Positions 17,637-53,923 of a stretch of 64,000 nucleotides of DNA are shown here, piece by piece (the first letter of the stretch is position 1; every line of letters starts with the position of its first letter). The translations under genes were made by a program, and so were the position numbers. Origin of the DNA: a virus; IMG/VR virus record IMGVR_UViG_3300045117_000026, positions 1 through 64,000 of that record; one strand, 5' to 3'. The notes under the pieces are model-generated. The model did not search any database. It saw only the letters and a program-made list of their open reading frames with translations, and was not told the origin of the DNA.

Positions 17637-18446
17637 TTAGACTAATTCCGTTCCTGTAAGTTCAAATTGAATAGCCTGTTTATACCTGTCAACTGCTATA
17701 CGGCAATAGCGTTCCTCGATGTCAATACCGATACACTTGCGTCCTAGTTTCTTGGCAGCAACAATAGCGGTACCCGAACCGAGAAACGGGTCAAGTATCG
17801 TTTGCCCCTCTAGTGAGTATGTCTGGATAAAGTACTCGAATAGCTTTAATGGTTTTTGTGTCGGATGCAATCCTCTGTCACCCGTTGCTCGGTTGTTAAA
17901 CTCTACGACAGAAGACGGGAATCGCAAAGTGTCTGCTTTGTTATTATATTCCGCTTCTAGATTATTAAACTTACCTACGAACTCGCCACTATTCCGGCGT
18001 GTCGCATCACTGAATAGGTACTTAACACGTTCTGTACCGCTTCCTCGCCTCTCTATCTTTATAGGATAGTAGTTCACCTTTGCTTTGCCGAACACAAGCA
18101 CTTCCTCGTGCTCTTTCATCGGGGCATAGTCGGCTTGAGCAAAATTGCTCGCACACAGTTTCTTGTATATCCATTCATGCCTAAACTGCTTTGGATTACT
18201 GGAAACCAATACAGAAGTATATGGTTGGCTAGCAGTGAATATCATGGCAGAGGACGGCTTGATTAGCCGATTAAATAACGACCACATTTCGTTAGTAGGT
18301 ATAGTTGAATCCCATGAGCAAGATGTTATCCCGTAAGGCGGGTCAGTTAGTATCAAGTCTATGCTCAGTTCGGGGAGTAATGGCAACACGCTCTTGTAGT
18401 CGGCATTATAGACGCATATGTCATTGTCTTGGAAATAGGGTTTCAT
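17637..18446 (-). CDS. DNA methyltransferase, N6-adenine/N4-cytosine type
   Basis: 269 residues. Catalytic motif DPPYG (35-39) comes before the SAM motif FLGSGT (near 222), the beta-class order. HPTQKPLKLFEYFI precedes the SAM motif as expected. Full length for a stand-alone phage methyltransferase. It modifies specific DNA sites, probably to resist restriction; specificity unknown. Confidence 0.85.
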   Translation of the reverse strand: MKPYFQDNDICVYNADYKSVLPLLPELSIDLILTDPPYGITSCSWDSTIPTNEMWSLFNRLIKPSSAMIFTASQPYTSVLVSSNPKQFRHEWIYKKLCASNFAQADYAPMKEHEEVLVFGKAKVNYYPIKIERRGSGTERVKYLFSDATRRNSGEFVGKFNNLEAEYNNKADTLRFPSSVVEFNNRATGDRGLHPTQKPLKLFEYFIQTYSLEGQTILDPFLGSGTAIVAAKKLGRKCIGIDIEERYCRIAVDRYKQAIQFELTGTELV

Positions 18447-19356: not shown

Positions 19357-20355
19357 TCATCCCAAGTCTGTAAATGCTGTAATAGATAACTGCTCGTGCT
19401 TCAGGCAACTAGGGGAAAACCATATTGTTTCACGCTTGCTGTTTTCACGCCCTTGCCCTTCGCCTTGATTTCCGTAGCCACCCCCGGACTTCCATCGGTA
19501 AACAGCCCAATCATCGGGCATGGGATGTTCTGTATCATAACCGCATAGGGCAATCCGCATTAGTGGATTTTTGCCTGCTTCGATTGCCCACGCTCTGACC
19601 TCCGCCGATACTGCATTACCGCCAGTAGTGTACATACTTTCATAGTCATCATACGGTGGGTCAAGGAATATCCCCGTTAGTCCTAGCACAAACGTAGGTG
19701 ACGGCGTTACTATACGTGACCAATCGCCACAGCATACACGCACATCCTTAAACCGTCCCGATAACCTATCAAACCACTCATATAATGGTTGAGTGGGGCG
19801 GTTGACACCTTCCCCTAGGTTTCTCAGCTGAGGTAGTTGGCGGTTGATACCCCGTGAACCACTCATGTGGGGTAACTGACGATTGACACCCTGTCCTTTA
19901 CCAGCCTTAACCATCAATCCATTCTCTGATACCCATGAGCCTTTTCCTCTACAAAAACCCCGACCTATCCAGCAGGACATACCCCATGCCCACCAGCCTG
20001 CTATCTTTGGGTCATACCAATCAGGGTTGCCCTCCAGTTTAGCAGCCAGTTCATCCTTGCGCTGTACCAGCCAATAGTGACGGGCGTGTAGGTCATTCTC
20101 AATAACAGGATAATCCGCATATTCAGCCGTCTTCTGTGGGTCATGCTTAACTGCTCGCCAAAAGTTGCTAACGTAGCCATCTTTATCATTCACCGTTTCG
20201 ATATGCCCTGTATGCCATGCCGGGCGGCGTAGCAAAACAGCACCGGAGCCAAAGAACGGCTCTACATAGTTCGGCACATCTCCGAACCTGCGCCATACCT
20301 CATCGGCTATTTTAGACTTCCCTCCGAAATAGGGGAACGGTGCTTCAAGTACCAT
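19357..20355 (-). CDS. Dam-family DNA adenine methyltransferase with internal repeats
   Basis: 332 residues. PYFGGKSKIA (8-17), EPFFGSGA (32-39) and LDPPYDD (near 233) are the alpha-class Dam motifs. Between them, about residues 155-190, a unit around G(V/I)NRQLP occurs three times. Such repeats sit where target recognition would lie. It probably methylates adenine at specific sites; specificity unknown. Confidence 0.85.
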   Translation of the reverse strand: MVLEAPFPYFGGKSKIADEVWRRFGDVPNYVEPFFGSGAVLLRRPAWHTGHIETVNDKDGYVSNFWRAVKHDPQKTAEYADYPVIENDLHARHYWLVQRKDELAAKLEGNPDWYDPKIAGWWAWGMSCWIGRGFCRGKGSWVSENGLMVKAGKGQGVNRQLPHMSGSRGINRQLPQLRNLGEGVNRPTQPLYEWFDRLSGRFKDVRVCCGDWSRIVTPSPTFVLGLTGIFLDPPYDDYESMYTTGGNAVSAEVRAWAIEAGKNPLMRIALCGYDTEHPMPDDWAVYRWKSGGGYGNQGEGQGRENSKRETIWFSPSCLKHEQLSITAFTDLG

Positions 20356-20593: not shown

Positions 20594-20804
20594 TATCTCT
20601 CCCCATGCTTACGTCTGTCACAAGGGCTAACGACTTTGCTTTCTCAAATGCCTCTCGTAATTCATCGTAAGCCTCAACGTCATCAAGAACTCGCTCGGCG
20701 TCATTTATCGCTTGTATTAACGGCGTAACATCCACAAGTCTGTTGTCGATTCTTCCAACGGCAATCTTAGCCATTTTAATAAGTTGTTCTACTTCTTTTA
20801 GCAT
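20586..20804 (-). CDS. Small helical protein
   Basis: 72 residues from ATG 20804, preceded by GGAGAGG. Mostly acidic helix, probably a helical hairpin or coiled coil. The start overlaps the stop of the cytosine methyltransferase gene. Function unknown. Confidence 0.6.
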   Translation of the reverse strand: MLKEVEQLIKMAKIAVGRIDNRLVDVTPLIQAINDAERVLDDVEAYDELREAFEKAKSLALVTDVSMGRDNG

Positions 20805-21958
20805 CGTTGCCTCTCCACATCCGCTATCGCCTTGAGTATTGGGTAAGCCTGTGGGACGCAAATTGCATTACCTAACGCCGTGAGCCGGTTGACCCTTTCC
20901 GTTTTGTCTGTCGTGAGGGGGTGCGGCATTTCCCATTCTCCCCCTGCCCAGGTGGGGATATATCCAGCCAGCCCTTCGGAAATCCCATCATCCATGCTAC
21001 AAAGTCGGGGTTCAATGTCCCCTTGTTTTTCGGAAACTGGTTTGTCCATTCGGGCAGATTCCCGTGATAATCCTTGCTCCCCGGTTTCCTGGTGGACACG
21101 CATCCCTTGTAATCCCTTGCCGACGGAGTGGGTATCGTGACTGAACGAGTCAGTGATTGATATTGACCGCTCTCCCGTGTCGCATTGTTGGCGTCGTCCG
21201 CTGTCGGTGTAGCCAATAATCCAGACCCGGTCCCGGCGGTGGATGGCGTTGACGGCGCAAGCTGGAATAATAATCGGTTGGACTCTGTAACCGATTCGCT
21301 CCATCTCGGTTGTGATTCCGTCCAACCACGAAAACAATTCTGCTTGTGTCTGACCACCTTCTTCGTCCTCGTCACCCGCCACTTCAGATACGCTATCTGA
21401 CTTGTCCATTCCCTTGATTCCAGCAGGATTCTCAAACACGCACCAAGTGGGTCTGAGTTCTTCAAGCACGCGGATAGTTTCATCCCAGAGCCAGCGGTCA
21501 TCTGCCGTGCCTCCTCGCTTCCCGGCAACACTGACAGGCTGGCATGGAGGAGAGGCTGTAAGCAGGGTGAGGGGGATTGACCAACTCTGACTGCTATCCC
21601 CAACGGTGTTCCCCCTTGCTGATAAGGGGTTTTCCTGTCCCCCTCGCTGGCTCTCGGTGTCGGCAGTAACCCCTTTTGTGCGAATGTTTCCAGCGTCCTG
21701 TCCGATTGCCGCTTGCTGCGAGGATTGTATTCCTTGCCAGGTCCTCTCCGTCCGTCCCATGCATTTGGTGTCGGAATTAATCCGCTCATACGTAACCTCC
21801 TTGACATCTGAGATAATCGGCACACCTGGGAAATGGTGTCTGAGTATGGATTGGCAGTAGGGGTTGATTTCACATAGGGCAACCGTGCGAAACCCTGCCC
21901 ATTCAGCAGCCAAGGTAAACCCGCCAATCCCGCTATACAGGTCGATGTGCGATAACAT
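20798..21958 (-). CDS. DNA (cytosine-5)-methyltransferase
   Basis: 386 residues. Motif I DLYSGIGGF (6-14), catalytic PPCQPVS (137-143, Cys139), ENPAG (176-180), RRDRVWIIG and C-terminal LTALGNAI are all present, so the enzyme looks complete. The spacer between motifs I and IV (about 60-125) and the stretch near 260-330 are low-complexity, polar and unlike typical family members. These are the parts where a second gene is read in another frame (20872-21789). Confidence 0.9.
   Translation of the reverse strand: MLSHIDLYSGIGGFTLAAEWAGFRTVALCEINPYCQSILRHHFPGVPIISDVKEVTYERINSDTKCMGRTERTWQGIQSSQQAAIGQDAGNIRTKGVTADTESQRGGQENPLSARGNTVGDSSQSWSIPLTLLTASPPCQPVSVAGKRGGTADDRWLWDETIRVLEELRPTWCVFENPAGIKGMDKSDSVSEVAGDEDEEGGQTQAELFSWLDGITTEMERIGYRVQPIIIPACAVNAIHRRDRVWIIGYTDSGRRQQCDTGERSISITDSFSHDTHSVGKGLQGMRVHQETGEQGLSRESARMDKPVSEKQGDIEPRLCSMDDGISEGLAGYIPTWAGGEWEMPHPLTTDKTERVNRLTALGNAICVPQAYPILKAIADVERQRC
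20872..21789 (-). CDS. Gene nested inside the cytosine methyltransferase gene (LPTP/MGFP family)
   Basis: 305 residues, same strand, different frame, wholly inside 20798-21958. ATG 21789 is preceded by a perfect AAGGAGGT five bases away, which the enclosing gene does not need. The protein repeats an (L/I)(L/A)PTP motif (GLIPTPNAWDG, GLLPTPRASEG, GLLATPTADDA, IPTPSARDY), has RLLFQLAPSTPST, and ends LNPDFVAWMMGFPKGWLD. I recognise this pattern from phage proteins of unknown function often annotated beside or as part of cytosine methyltransferases. Role unknown. It would be translated from the same mRNA as the methyltransferase. Confidence 0.65.
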   Translation of the reverse strand: MSGLIPTPNAWDGRRGPGKEYNPRSKRQSDRTLETFAQKGLLPTPRASEGDRKTPYQQGGTPLGIAVRVGQSPSPCLQPLLHASLSVLPGSEEARQMTAGSGMKLSACLKNSDPLGACLRILLESREWTSQIAYLKWRVTRTKKVVRHKQNCFRGWTESQPRWSESVTESNRLLFQLAPSTPSTAGTGSGLLATPTADDANNATRESGQYQSLTRSVTIPTPSARDYKGCVSTRKPGSKDYHGNLPEWTNQFPKNKGTLNPDFVAWMMGFPKGWLDISPPGQGENGKCRTPSRQTKRKGSTGSRR

Positions 21959-22867: not shown

Positions 22868-24088
22868 TTAATCCAAACTCAACCCAGGTGTCACCGTAAC
22901 CCTGTGTTTAATCAGTTCGCAATAGTTCTCGGATTGCTCCACCAGTATTGACCGCCTGCCTAATTGAGTCGCTACCTTTCCTGTAGTACCTGTTCCGGCG
23001 AACGGGTCAAGGACAATTTGCGGTTCAATAGGAGCATTACAATCGCACTGTGGTACCCAAGAACTTTTAGTTACCTGCGACATTCGTTCCAAAATGCGTT
23101 GCTTCAGGCGTGAGGGAGTAACGGCGCCAGTACCTTCATAATCTTTCATGTCGCTACCGAAATACTCGCCGTCACTATTACAGCCGGCTCGTTTCATTTC
23201 CTCGGTAATCTGGTGGTCAATAATAGTAATCTCACGCTGCCAAGGTTTGCCACACTTTGAGCATTGTCCTTTAGCAGATGTAGCCATTGAAATACACAGG
23301 CGAGGTATCTCTTCGGGGAAAGCAGCGAAGTGCGAAAGCCAATTATTTGTCCCACACTTCCGGCACCACCGCCCATCTTCTTTGAGAACAGTCCCCTTGG
23401 TGAATTCATCCCGCCCGTAAATCGTCTTGCACGTCAGGCACATATTGGCTGAGTAAGATACAGTCGGTATCTCCCATATTGCTCGGATGTTTCTGCCCGA
23501 GTTTGCGCACCTGTCACCAGGCTCGACTTGCCTCATGCCGTGCTCACCCTGCCCCTTAAGCTTCATGTTGCCATCGCCATATTCATTGCGCATTCTGGTT
23601 GACTCTTTATATGGGACACGGACGGCTTCCATGTCAAAGAAGTAATCTTCATTTAGCACAAACATAAGAATATGCTCGTAGTCAATCGTCGGTCTATCCG
23701 GTGCGGATGACGGCATTGAATTCGGCTTCACCCATATTATATCAGCTCGTGGTATCCAGCCCTCATCAGCTAATGCTATAGCAATGCGATGCGGGATTAA
23801 CTCGAGGTCCTTTGCTCTGGTGACGCCGAACTTATCGCCGACATTCCAGAAAACAACCCCGTCATTACGCAACACTGGTAACAGCGAGCCACAAAAGAAA
23901 TCAACTGTATGCTGTACATATTCGGCAACCGTTTTCTCTGCTCCAAACCATGCGTTACCATCATAGTCTCGCTGATTGAAATACGGTGGCGAAGTGACTA
24001 CGCATTGTACCTGGTAGGGCAGGGTGGCAAGGTCCTTGTTATCTCCATGATAGAGGGAGAGGAGAGGGGTCTGGTAAAAGACTTTCAT
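22868..24088 (-). CDS. DNA methyltransferase (SPPY type) with zinc-cluster insert
   Basis: 406 residues. Catalytic TSPPYF (32-37) and SAM motif FAGTGT (near 371) in beta-class order; SPPY suggests N4-cytosine methylation, though N6-adenine enzymes also use it. Between them are Cys pairs (CLTC, WCRKCG, CSKCGKPW, CDC) forming one or two zinc ribbons, as in several archaeal and phage methyltransferases, probably for target recognition. Confidence 0.85.
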   Translation of the reverse strand: MKVFYQTPLLSLYHGDNKDLATLPYQVQCVVTSPPYFNQRDYDGNAWFGAEKTVAEYVQHTVDFFCGSLLPVLRNDGVVFWNVGDKFGVTRAKDLELIPHRIAIALADEGWIPRADIIWVKPNSMPSSAPDRPTIDYEHILMFVLNEDYFFDMEAVRVPYKESTRMRNEYGDGNMKLKGQGEHGMRQVEPGDRCANSGRNIRAIWEIPTVSYSANMCLTCKTIYGRDEFTKGTVLKEDGRWCRKCGTNNWLSHFAAFPEEIPRLCISMATSAKGQCSKCGKPWQREITIIDHQITEEMKRAGCNSDGEYFGSDMKDYEGTGAVTPSRLKQRILERMSQVTKSSWVPQCDCNAPIEPQIVLDPFAGTGTTGKVATQLGRRSILVEQSENYCELIKHRVTVTPGLSLD

Positions 24089-30645: not shown

Positions 30646-31452
30646 TTACACCTCATTAACGTAAACATAATCTACCAAGAGGTAGATAGCATCTTGTTTA
30701 TCAGAGGGGGAGAGCGGAGCATCGGTGCGCAGTAGGTTAATAAGCCTTTTAGCAATAGACTTATCAAGGGTATCTCGCAAAGAACCAGATGTTGCCGGAC
30801 CATTGTAATTGTAATGAGCCTCAAGAGGGTACTCGTCTACAAGAGGAGCTTTTGATACATTAGTCTCTGGTAGCGGGTCAGCCTTGACTGTTACAGGCGC
30901 AGTTGTGAATACTTGAGTTAGCGTGCCTTTACCTCCCCATGTATCTGCTTTATCCGGCATTGACAAGAGGAATGTTTTTGTTTCCTCTGCCCATTTGGTA
31001 TGATCGGGCCAGTCATGCACATGGACCGTAATCTCTTTCACCATGACTGCACCGCACAATGTCTTTCCTTTGACTGATGCGCTGATGGCGCCGGAGTTGG
31101 TGATTATCAAGCTGACAGGATTATTGGCGTCTACATAACTCTGATCAGCCGGCGAATGGAATGTCCCCATGTTGTGGTGCGAATGTATGACGCCGACTTT
31201 CCGCTCCGGGGAGACTTCCCCAGGTAACATCTCGCACCAGCCGGAACTGGGTTTGACCTGGCGTGGAATAACGATGTCATCGACAAGTACCAGTTCATCA
31301 GAGATCGTGCCGAGACACCATCCAATCCACTCAAGGTTGCTCATTGCATCGCATAGGGAACATGCTTTGGCAAAGGCGTCAAGGGTTATTGAAACATCTG
31401 GGAAGATACCGGGTTTTCCGCATTGGGTAATACACTCTTTAGATTGCCACAT
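30646..31452 (-). CDS. JAMM/MPN+ metalloprotease (deubiquitinase-like)
   Basis: 268 residues. The JAMM motif HxHx7Sx2D is exact: His90, His92, Ser100, Asp103 (HSHHNMGTFHSPAD), with Glu41 (LEWIGW) as the likely catalytic Glu. JAMM enzymes cleave isopeptide or peptide bonds after ubiquitin-like Gly-Gly ends. The last 90 residues form a separate helical part. The stop and start overlap with the E1 gene. The modifier ending in GGC two genes upstream is a probable substrate: removal of its last Cys would expose GG. Confidence 0.85.
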   Translation of the reverse strand: MWQSKECITQCGKPGIFPDVSITLDAFAKACSLCDAMSNLEWIGWCLGTISDELVLVDDIVIPRQVKPSSGWCEMLPGEVSPERKVGVIHSHHNMGTFHSPADQSYVDANNPVSLIITNSGAISASVKGKTLCGAVMVKEITVHVHDWPDHTKWAEETKTFLLSMPDKADTWGGKGTLTQVFTTAPVTVKADPLPETNVSKAPLVDEYPLEAHYNYNGPATSGSLRDTLDKSIAKRLINLLRTDAPLSPSDKQDAIYLLVDYVYVNEV

Positions 31453-32483
31453 TATGTCTTAATCTCCTTTCTTCCTTTTTCCAGACCTGCCATGAATGCC
31501 TCGCAATAATCGCAATTATGTTGCTTACAGTTAAGACACTTACCAGGTCCGTCAGCTAGACCCTTATTGTATGCTCTGCAGTCCTCACAATCTCTGTGTA
31601 CGCATTCATTACAATTACCAAAGTCAACTTCATCCGCGTCAACCTTACCGCAGTTCTCGCACGCATTTGCGACGGCTCTACAACCATCACACTTGTCGCA
31701 GTCATCGCAGTCCCCACGGTAGCAGTCATCGCACATTTCTCTGTGCGCCTTGCATTCGTCACGTTTACAGCGGTCACAATCATCGAAGCTGTCTTTCTTG
31801 GTACATGTCTTGCACAGTTCTGGGCTGGCAACCTCTTGAGTAACAATCCTGGGTTGTCCTACATCACCGATATCCATTGATAGTTGAAGCAATGGAAACT
31901 TCATGAGCTTGGCTACACCCATTGCGGCGGCCGCTATAGCTGGGACGACCCAGCTTGGGATAAAGTTGTAGGCCGCTATCTTACCGTTCTCGTCTACTAC
32001 GGCAGGAACTTTCTCCTGAACCCATCCGGGTAACTTGTCTGCTACCATGAAGTGAGTACCATCATACCCAAGCTTTGTGTATGTCACTCCATAGTCAACT
32101 GACCATTTGTAGTTAATCCCCTGGGAAATCAGAGTGTCGGTACAATCTATCAGATTGTCGGGTAAGACATAGTCATTGTGGAAATCCTCGAGCGGGAACT
32201 TTACGATATACGCATTACACGTAATATCCGGTCGCAGGGCTATGATAAGCTCCCTTGTCGCTTCAGCTTTATACTGGTCAAGCTGATGGATTGTGAACGG
32301 CAGTCGGTTCAGGTTAGAAGCTTCAATCCGGTCAGGGTCGTACAGTTCAATGTGCGGTACCCCTGACATCGCAAGGAGCAAAGCTACCCAAGCACCGACA
32401 CCACCGCACCCAACTACTGCCACCTTTTGTGGCATCAAGAGGTGCAACTCCTGTTGCCTGTTATAAATTATGTCGGCTTCCAT
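31452..32483 (-). CDS. ThiF/E1-like activating enzyme with 21-Cys tail
   Basis: 343 residues. GCGGVGAW (25-32), Asp49, Asp51, NLNR (57-60), Lys72 and IDCTD (112-116) are the ATP/adenylation residues of E1/ThiF/MoeB enzymes, which adenylate the C-terminal Gly of a ubiquitin-like protein. Residues 224-327 hold 21 cysteines, mostly in CxxC pairs separated by acidic residues, far beyond the two CxxC of ThiF/MoeB zinc sites. The tail could bind several zinc ions or an Fe-S cluster, or carry thioester Cys. The ORF overlaps both neighbours, indicating one operon. Confidence 0.85.
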   Translation of the reverse strand: MEADIIYNRQQELHLLMPQKVAVVGCGGVGAWVALLLAMSGVPHIELYDPDRIEASNLNRLPFTIHQLDQYKAEATRELIIALRPDITCNAYIVKFPLEDFHNDYVLPDNLIDCTDTLISQGINYKWSVDYGVTYTKLGYDGTHFMVADKLPGWVQEKVPAVVDENGKIAAYNFIPSWVVPAIAAAAMGVAKLMKFPLLQLSMDIGDVGQPRIVTQEVASPELCKTCTKKDSFDDCDRCKRDECKAHREMCDDCYRGDCDDCDKCDGCRAVANACENCGKVDADEVDFGNCNECVHRDCEDCRAYNKGLADGPGKCLNCKQHNCDYCEAFMAGLEKGRKEIKT

Positions 32484-33343
32484 AATCCTGATCCTTTCGC
32501 TTCGTCATTAAAGTCTTCCTTCAATGCATTAATCACATCATTGTACGTCGGGATATTATCCTCTGGATTTTCATGCATACCGGAAAACTCGTTAATGTAA
32601 CCCTGTTGTGCTATTGCTTGTGTTATTAGTTGTGTCGGCTCGGGGTTTAAGGGAACGTTGCGATAAGCAAGAGATCGCACACAGTTATTGTACCCGGAGC
32701 CGTAATAGTTGCGGAACGGGGCGCCGTCCTGCCGGAAGAGACCAATGTTACTGCATACAGGTGATCTGGTGCCTGTGAAACGGAGTTGCAGGAATACGTT
32801 ACGGCTTGAGGCTTCTTGTATTTCCTTTGGTATATCGTAGAACTTCCCGTGACGTTCAAGCTTTGTCGGGCACCAAGTGAACGGGACTGCATATACAAGA
32901 CAGTCTAGATGATAGAACAACCTCTTACCGCTAACGGCGTATTGTATGGTGAACCACTTTGGGAACTTGAACTCGTTTGACGTATTTACTTTTCTGAGGA
33001 ATTCGTTAATGGCAATGACAGCAACCCTTTTGTTAGAACTTGCTTGGTCTGCCATTACACCAACCAAACTCTTTATGATAGGCTCTTTGGTTTTCTTGTT
33101 GGTGACGGAAACGTCGCAGGAGCCAATGTCTGCGTCGTTTAATTTCAGGGTAATGGAGTTGTCTTCCGTCCTTAGAGCGTCAATGATCTGCTTATACTCA
33201 GGTGGCTCTTCAGGCACATGTCCGTTTGATGCCAGCCATACCGACAGCGGGCAACGTTCACTAAAAGAACAAGCGGTGTGCGGTATCAATGACTGCGGAA
33301 CACGTGCACCGTTGACAGACATTACTTCTTGATTTGTCGGCAT
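32468..33343 (-). CDS. Candidate E2-like protein of the ubiquitin-like cassette
   Basis: 291 residues, family not recognised by sequence. Its place, between modifier and E1 with 16 bases overlapping the E1 gene, is where E2 conjugating enzymes sit in bacterial Ubl-E2-E1-JAB operons. The middle is beta-rich (FTIQYAVSGKRLFYHLDCLVYAVPF), followed by PVCSNIG and NNCVRSL, either of which could hold a catalytic Cys. No HPN-type E2 signature is visible. It may instead be the conjugation target or a substrate adaptor. Confidence 0.55.
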   Translation of the reverse strand: MPTNQEVMSVNGARVPQSLIPHTACSFSERCPLSVWLASNGHVPEEPPEYKQIIDALRTEDNSITLKLNDADIGSCDVSVTNKKTKEPIIKSLVGVMADQASSNKRVAVIAINEFLRKVNTSNEFKFPKWFTIQYAVSGKRLFYHLDCLVYAVPFTWCPTKLERHGKFYDIPKEIQEASSRNVFLQLRFTGTRSPVCSNIGLFRQDGAPFRNYYGSGYNNCVRSLAYRNVPLNPEPTQLITQAIAQQGYINEFSGMHENPEDNIPTYNDVINALKEDFNDEAKGSGLWKPT

Positions 33344-52047: not shown

Positions 52048-52253
52048 AACTAAAGGAAGACTTCGGGGTAACGGCATTATTCGGTTGCCTGATAATTGTC
52101 GGCGCCTTTGCTGTTATCCTTGCCGCCCTGTTAAAGGACAAGATAGAGTTCGAGTCTGTTTTTGTTGCTGTTTCATCCTGGGTAGGGTCGATAATCACAG
52201 CGTACGTACTCAAGGCTAAGACCAACGGCTTTGGGGGGAAAGAACAAAAATGA
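52044..52253 (+). CDS. Small membrane protein, two TM segments
   Basis: 69 residues, hydrophobic helices about 8-30 and 38-57, charged GGKEQK end. Overlaps both neighbours by 4 bases. Could be a holin-like or head-associated membrane protein. Confidence 0.6.
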   Translation: MKLKEDFGVTALFGCLIIVGAFAVILAALLKDKIEFESVFVAVSSWVGSIITAYVLKAKTNGFGGKEQK

Positions 52254-53923
52254 CTGAAGAAAACGGGTCCCTCGCTAGCAGACCAGATGAAGTTGTTGGA
52301 GCTGATGGCTCGTTGAATGCGGCTGGGCTTCACAAGGACGGTCGAGAGGGACCCGCCGAACTCAATGAACAGCATATCCTGACAGGAATGCCACCGATAC
52401 CGCAAATATTACAGTGCGTTGTCACCTTTCAGGCAGTTAACCTTGTCGGCTCCTCTGTATATGACGGTAGCAAACCCCACGATGCCGATGTTCTGGTTCG
52501 CTCGTCAAGCTCGCTCCCAGAACTCGAGCGTAATCTGGAAACACAACTTGGGCCAAAGGTACATTTCCTCTACGAGACTAAAGGGCCGTCTTGGGACCAC
52601 ATGCCTCTCGGCGACTTTGTTCTTTATCCGGTTAACGGCAAACCAGCTATAAGCGAAAGTTCTGCAGCAGATACGCTAGCTGGAAAGTTACGGCCAATAC
52701 TCGTCGACCCTCGGTATCTCAACCTCGTCAAATCTTCCGGAACTATCAAATTCCGAGTGAACTCCGATTCGCCTGACCCCGGTTTCTTTCTGAAGTTACA
52801 GAGGATGATGGGTGACTTGGGGCAGGATGCGGTGGGTTTCTCTCAGAAGACTGAGGTGGGGGAGGTACCGGTGGGGATGCTTTATTTTATTCCATATCCG
52901 GCCTTTCAGAAAGTCGTGGTTAACGAACCGGACTTTAAGCGATTCTATATTAAGAAAACAAATGTTGAGGAGAATGCAATGCTTGTAAAAGATTTTTTGG
53001 AGTTGATTGAGGGTGTCGGTCTAGTTGAGGGAACGCGGCCGCCGTGGGGTTCTCCAGGTGGCAAACGCTTCATGGCAAGGCGTCTTATAAAGATGTTTCC
53101 GGAAGAGTTCAAAACCTATGTCGAGCCGTTCTTTGGCGGTGGCGCCGTTTTCTATGCGATGGATAATCAAAAGCAGGGACGCAAAGAGATTATCAACGAC
53201 CTTAATAAAGACATCGTCCGTGCCGTCAAGTTTATCCAGCATATATCCGACGCACAAATTGACGCCCTGTCGAAGAAGGATTGGAAGCCGACTGCCGATC
53301 ACTATGCTTATCTTAAGAACTTGAAGCCGGTGCGGGAAGTTGATTGGATGTACCGCTTCCTCTACATGAAGCGTCATTCCTACGGTGGCAATATCGGTCA
53401 GCAAGGATTGAAACAAGCCACCCACACCCCCGCCTACTTTGAGAACCTGAAGAGGGTGAGAGAGCGTCTCAAGGGTGTCGATGTCCGTAGCGAAGACGCT
53501 GCGAAACTCATCCCCAAAGTTGACGGCAAGGACGTGTTCTTTTTCCTTGACCCGCCGTATCCTGAGAAGACAAAGAACTGGTTTAATCTCGGCTGGATAG
53601 AGATGGACGACCTCGTCAAGCTGGCAAAGGGGATGAAAGGCAAGTTCCTGATGACATTACAGGCCGGTACCAAGGTCCGGAGTGCTTTCAAAGACTTCAA
53701 CGTCAAGTCAATGAAGACATATGCCTACATTATCACCAATCGTCCAGGACAGGCCCCTGCAGTCCGCAACGAAACCATCATCACGAACTACGATAAGAAG
53801 AACGTCAAGGAAGCTTTTCCTGAGAAGTTCTTTACTATTACTGCGAGTGATGGCATTACTGTCATCGAGCAGAAACTACTGACGCCTGAAGAAATGGAAG
53901 CCCTCGAGTTTTCTGAGGATTAG
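52250..53923 (+). CDS. Fusion: nucleotidyltransferase-like domain plus Dam-type methyltransferase
   Basis: 557 residues. The N-terminal part has VNLVGSSVYDGSKPHDADVLVRS (about 63-85), matching the GS...HDxD motif of Pol-beta-like minimal nucleotidyltransferases. The C-terminal part has a PGGKRFMARRL segment, VEPFFGGGAVFY and FFLDPPYPEK, the alpha-class adenine methyltransferase motifs. Both sit between portal and capsid genes. The fusion may modify DNA during packaging; role unproven. Confidence 0.75.
   Translation: MTEENGSLASRPDEVVGADGSLNAAGLHKDGREGPAELNEQHILTGMPPIPQILQCVVTFQAVNLVGSSVYDGSKPHDADVLVRSSSSLPELERNLETQLGPKVHFLYETKGPSWDHMPLGDFVLYPVNGKPAISESSAADTLAGKLRPILVDPRYLNLVKSSGTIKFRVNSDSPDPGFFLKLQRMMGDLGQDAVGFSQKTEVGEVPVGMLYFIPYPAFQKVVVNEPDFKRFYIKKTNVEENAMLVKDFLELIEGVGLVEGTRPPWGSPGGKRFMARRLIKMFPEEFKTYVEPFFGGGAVFYAMDNQKQGRKEIINDLNKDIVRAVKFIQHISDAQIDALSKKDWKPTADHYAYLKNLKPVREVDWMYRFLYMKRHSYGGNIGQQGLKQATHTPAYFENLKRVRERLKGVDVRSEDAAKLIPKVDGKDVFFFLDPPYPEKTKNWFNLGWIEMDDLVKLAKGMKGKFLMTLQAGTKVRSAFKDFNVKSMKTYAYIITNRPGQAPAVRNETIITNYDKKNVKEAFPEKFFTITASDGITVIEQKLLTPEEMEALEFSED

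Follow-up and report, generated by a model that had tools for sequence, protein, structure and literature searches.

A nested +1 reading frame in a phage cytosine methyltransferase gene probably encodes the motif IX subunit of the same enzyme

The closest known systems to the locus described here are M.EcoHK31I and, beside it, M.EaeI. The small-subunit gene of M.EcoHK31I, encoding a beta polypeptide of about 176 aa, lies inside the large-subunit gene in another frame, and Lee, Kam and Shaw are said to have described in 1995 both this nesting and a need for both polypeptides in activity. M.EcoHK31I is an experimentally known two-polypeptide cytosine-5 DNA methyltransferase (C5-MTase) whose large subunit holds motifs I-VIII and X together with the predicted TRD, with motif IX found only in the small subunit, and M.AquI is a naturally split C5-MTase with motif X in its small subunit (PMC3404938). 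In the Paenibacillus larvae phages Lily (gp63) and Shelly (gp56), depositors annotated a homologous gene, nested in the C5-MTase gene, as an 'internal gene' with the label 'hypothetical protein' or 'DNA cytosine methyltransferase'; these phages have a distant host and a shorter beta than the one reported below. The split-methyltransferase kind is already known, and it is its breadth that appears under-recognised.

We analyzed a window of 64,000 nt from a 79,568-base IMG/VR virus record, in which the gene for a 386-aa C5-MTase alpha subunit occupies 20798..21958 on the minus strand, the strand of every feature of this locus. Alpha matches PF00145 (E 2e-29) and phrog_363 (E 5e-63), and its profile alignment covers only motifs I-VIII and X, without motif IX. 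As the original prediction held, a 305-residue frame lies within this gene on the same strand: the beta ORF (20872..21789), in the +1 frame relative to alpha, begins with an ATG 169 nt after the alpha start and runs 305 codons to its stop without interruption. Its product matches phrog_1008 'DNA methyltransferase' (E 8e-30), with no match in Pfam or NCBIfam. The Shine-Dalgarno site predicted five bases before this ATG is likewise there, as AAGGAGGT at 21802..21795 within the alpha codons for K-E-V, followed by TACGT and then the ATG.

Within beta, an N-terminal extension (residues 1-82; 21544..21789) contains two extra [LI]PTP repeats and aligns with the alpha insert between motif I and motif IV. 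The conserved core, SLSVLPGSEEARQMT...RLLFQLAPS (residues about 83-181; 21247..21543), overlies alpha motifs IV-VIII and includes the invariant alignment columns S101, W137, and L177. On the alpha side we located motif IV, PPCQP, with the catalytic Cys (21536..21550; invariant columns P138, C139, and Q140), motif VIII, AIHRRDRVW (21221..21247; invariant columns A238, R242, and R244), and motif X, RLTALGNAICVP (20852..20887; G363, N364, and P368), which aligns to the standard motif X. The repeated LPTP motifs that had been claimed for beta do recur, but as [LI]xTP variants (IPTPNAWD, LPTPRASE, ATPTADD, and IPTPSARD), the literal LPTP occurring only once. The C-terminal element LNPDFVAWMMGFPKGWLD is also present, at residues 259-276 (20962..21015), where profile alignment and an in-frame counterpart in a one-chain MTase, DillTech15 gp66, support it as a motif-IX-like element; its supposed origin in 'separate phage proteins', however, did not hold, as the loci examined show either identical nesting or an in-frame segment in one-chain methyltransferases.

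Profile comparison with the standard C5-MTases of the same genomes placed alpha on columns 39-209 (motifs I-VIII) and 360-389 (motif X), skipping columns 210-359. The single match of beta set its residues 258-274 on columns 338-354, which correspond to motif IX (for example KMTPREWARLQGFPDTY); this match is weak (Prob 0.2%, E 0.29) and sits within the column gap left by alpha. The beta sequence in question, LNPDFVAWMMGFPKGW, provides the motif IX feature of an M.EcoHK31I-type small subunit, and a pattern search of 222 relatives found motif IX in none of their alpha frames. Alpha does not score as a canonical one-chain C5-MTase, reaching 75.1 bits against TIGR00675, below the cut-off of 100.65, and the second subunit does not carry motifs IX and X together as the M.AquI type would; both are split C5-MTases, but motif X lies in the small subunit of M.AquI and in alpha at the window locus. 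With M.EcoHK31I, the locus shares the two-polypeptide plan, motif IX in the small subunit, and the nested gene. It differs in that M.EcoHK31I is known for YGGCCR and has its TRD predicted in the large subunit, whereas the window beta is 305 aa long with an N-terminal repeat extension and only putatively contains the target-recognition part. Every M.EcoHK31I-type feature that we tested was found, and the window locus may be assigned to that type by likeness of described features rather than of sequence; a plasmid search for an enterobacterial EcoHK31I-like pair found none.

Judging from the sequences, we consider it very likely that alpha and beta, the products of the overlapping genes, are the two subunits of a single heterodimeric C5 DNA methyltransferase of the M.EcoHK31I kind, with beta internally initiated. 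In such an enzyme, alpha would contribute motif X and the motifs for AdoMet binding and catalysis (I-VIII), though not IX. Beta, whose translation would begin at its own +1-frame start with the internal Shine-Dalgarno site, would supply motif IX from its C-terminus, while its core and repeat region probably hold target-recognition elements. We infer that the two subunits would assemble into an active enzyme that methylates the phage's own DNA at its target sequence, probably as protection against host restriction.

Relatives with other gene layouts bear directly on this proposal. In the mycobacteriophage DillTech15 (Cheoctovirus), gp66 carries in one frame the same motifs I-VIII, several LPTP repeats, the IX-like element, and motif X that are distributed over two frames in the window, and in Tweety gp72, also from a mycobacteriophage, the IX-like element lies in frame between motifs VIII and X; the beta profile matches both in frame (E 1e-9 for DillTech15 gp66 and E 2e-6 for Tweety gp72). 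Three further relatives (L056, L168, and L207) have an AquI-like split, with alpha ending directly after motif VIII and the beta frame running through IX into X. A PF00145 search of 15 genomes found full-domain C5-MTases without beta and alpha-type ones with it. We read the pair as one enzyme in two chains because the weak motif IX match fills the gap in alpha, and because of these one-chain, AquI-like, and full-domain observations. Several loci that regular expressions had flagged as exceptions proved otherwise on inspection: those marked as beta without motif IX (L175, L204, and L220) carry variants of the element, those marked as alpha without motif X (L175, L186, L189, L243, and L006) do carry it, and the remaining flagged loci (L214, L217, L224, L193, and L034) run off contig ends. 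The Mycobacterium phage Tweety record (L280, 1210-2427) has, besides its one-chain MTase with motif IX in frame, a shorter beta-like +1 ORF at 1670-2068, possibly an intermediate layout.

The same relatives weigh against beta being a real protein whose role is separate (in regulation or anti-restriction, for example) and which only has its DNA in common with the methyltransferase. Such a role would suit the conserved N-terminal core, which matches no known fold and has no significant PDB sequence match, but we regard it as highly improbable given that beta carries the one motif missing from alpha, was always accompanied by alpha in the loci examined, and in some relatives is fused in frame to the remainder of the enzyme. 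Beta appears to complete the same enzyme instead of being an unrelated second product. AlphaFold models of isolated beta were of low confidence (mean pLDDT 58.9 for the window protein and 63.5 for L112, a compact relative). They show two helices, a beta hairpin, predicted with confidence in L112, and a further helix at motif IX; neither model gave a good match to solved folds, and a PDB sequence search with the beta profile returned nothing significant, only esterase matches at E 0.14 or worse. Beta may require alpha to fold.

We assessed double-coding by synonymous shuffling, in which alpha codons were permuted with the alpha protein and codon usage kept. Stops in the nested frame of relatives, a check proposed with the original prediction, were absent: 0 in 49,653 codons of 222 distinct loci, which are phylogenetically non-independent and of which the first sample was found mostly via the beta frame, as against 3.85 stops per locus in shuffles, where about 3.6 of the 222 loci would be expected to be open by chance (mean chance per locus, 1.6%). 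Shuffles of the window gene had a mean of 5.2 stops over the matched overlap (297 codons), and 0/200 stayed open. Scores against the beta profile had medians of 215 bits (real genes) and 67 bits (shuffled genes), the latter being the similarity that alpha conservation alone generates.

The codon-position substitution check gave a concordant result. Over 84 non-overlapping related gene pairs, with alignments that are rough in the repeat region, alpha four-fold sites differed at 27% inside the overlap (1335/4987) versus 58% outside it (1160/1995), and the ratio of third- to first-position changes was 1.1 inside versus 2.2 outside. One close pair (L024/L115) showed 3 third-position changes in 169 overlap codons compared with 25 in 88 other codons. 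By these computations the nested ORF is double-coding and not open by chance, and the claim that one kilobase encodes two proteins is supported, at the level of sequence, by homologues, stop-free relatives, and codon-position substitutions. One could still ask whether the +1 frame owes its openness and similarity to skewed codon use and the conservation of alpha motifs, with no second protein made, since the conserved parts of beta lie partly over conserved motifs of alpha and even shuffled genes reach their median of 67 bits; the much higher real scores, the missing stops, the confinement of four-fold site conservation to the overlap, and the unambiguous coding of the repeat and IX segment in one-chain and AquI-like relatives make such a by-product exceedingly unlikely, and a chance or by-product ORF was rejected on the shuffles and pair substitution counts.

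The start of beta bears its own signature. Among relatives whose alpha has K-E within the 2-12 nt that precede the beta ATG, these residues are encoded as AAG-GAG in 21/31 cases versus 12% expected, and Shine-Dalgarno-like 5-mers precede 55/173 beta starts versus 2/173 control positions further upstream and 85/1712 other ATGs of the frame. An obvious 5-mer thus stands before the chosen ATG in only about a third of relatives, the rest having weak or other starts. On these codon and 5-mer counts, the internal ribosome site is under selection. This also bears on a route by which programmed ribosomal frameshifting after alpha motif VIII would reach the +1 frame and yield an alpha-beta fusion rather than a free subunit. 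The constant +1 relation, and the motif order I-VIII then IX that a shift would restore, are as frameshifting would have them, but beta has its own ATG and a Shine-Dalgarno site under selection, its conserved core lies upstream of any useful shift point, and the shifted product would lose the motif X that alpha keeps; we judge frameshifting very unlikely and retain internal initiation of a free beta subunit.

Searches with the inner-protein family recovered 80 viral and 80 genomic loci, 170 together with phage records, and in this sample, found mostly via the inner protein, beta lies in the +1 frame of an alpha at 170/170 loci. The nesting is fixed throughout, and the homologue search proposed originally thereby returned only nested genes, besides the in-frame segment of one-chain relatives. 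Genomic loci carry titles from Bacillota, Bacteroidota, Pseudomonadota, Acidobacteria, Omnitrophota, Planctomycetes, Dehalococcoidales, Anaerolineales, and others. When searching from alpha instead, beta in +1 and no in-frame motif IX were found in 80/80 loci, these being the best 80 of 550 by similarity to the window alpha type and sharing some contigs with the first sample. The same layout is present in Klebsiella, Xanthomonas, Mycobacterium (OwlsT2W), Microcystis, and Bacteroides phages and in E. coli prophages, and in the three E. coli records examined the RefSeq annotation has the outer gene alone. Per genome the nested family is uncommon (4/299 sampled genomes of the phylum of G001). We think it likely that a clade of phage and bacterial cytosine methyltransferases spanning many phyla obligatorily double-codes a motif-IX subunit inside the catalytic gene, that this is among the widest and longest conserved same-strand overlaps, that it switches between nested, AquI-like, and one-chain layouts, and that annotation has mostly missed it, as in E. 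coli prophages. A literature search found no report of widespread nested MTase subunits, a result of little weight as most subscription papers were outside its reach.

Same-strand overlaps of such length and depth of conservation are rare and difficult to demonstrate, and the hundreds of natural replicates here make double-coding testable. Of the phage and prophage C5-MTases that annotation gives as one gene, many probably need an unannotated subunit to be complete enzymes; cloning such enzymes by protein sequence, or codon-optimizing them, would therefore fail, because beta is lost when alpha is recoded synonymously. Together, the nested, AquI-like, and one-chain layouts form a natural series on how overlaps form and resolve.

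Individual loci showed further variation. Unannotated +1 beta ORFs lie inside RefSeq-annotated prophage cytosine methyltransferases of E. coli PT62 (L298; 3891-4811 and 6849-7601) and E. coli 2011C-4251 (L296; 918-1832), and a related outer gene is present in 57/5426 E. coli genomes. In E. coli PCP07014 (L297; 1874-2635) the outer gene is annotated as a pseudogene with an internal stop, and the beta frame persists as a 136-codon remnant with motif IX. Two tandem alpha/beta nested pairs, apparently a duplicated double-coded unit, occur in IMGVR_UViG_3300025112_000507 (L085; 132-1950). In a gut phage scaffold (L003, MT835926.1; about 994-2010), an intein-like insert apparently splits alpha at the catalytic PC|Q of motif IV, with boundaries GGFPC-FDGDTL...VVHNC-QPFSVAG.

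The phage record contains at least four further DNA methyltransferase-like genes besides the nested pair: one of D12 class (19357-20355), two of N4/N6 type (17637-18446 and 22868-24088), and one phrog_56-like (52250-53923). This set fits a phage that heavily modifies its DNA against restriction; no partner endonuclease was identified among the subset of window ORFs scanned. Elsewhere in the window, a ThiF (E1-like) gene (31452-32483, minus strand; PF00899, E 8e-24) is flanked by genes at 30646-31452 and 32468-33343, one without a PHROG match and one without a Pfam match, and the three are possibly a ubiquitin-like or nucleotide-transfer module.
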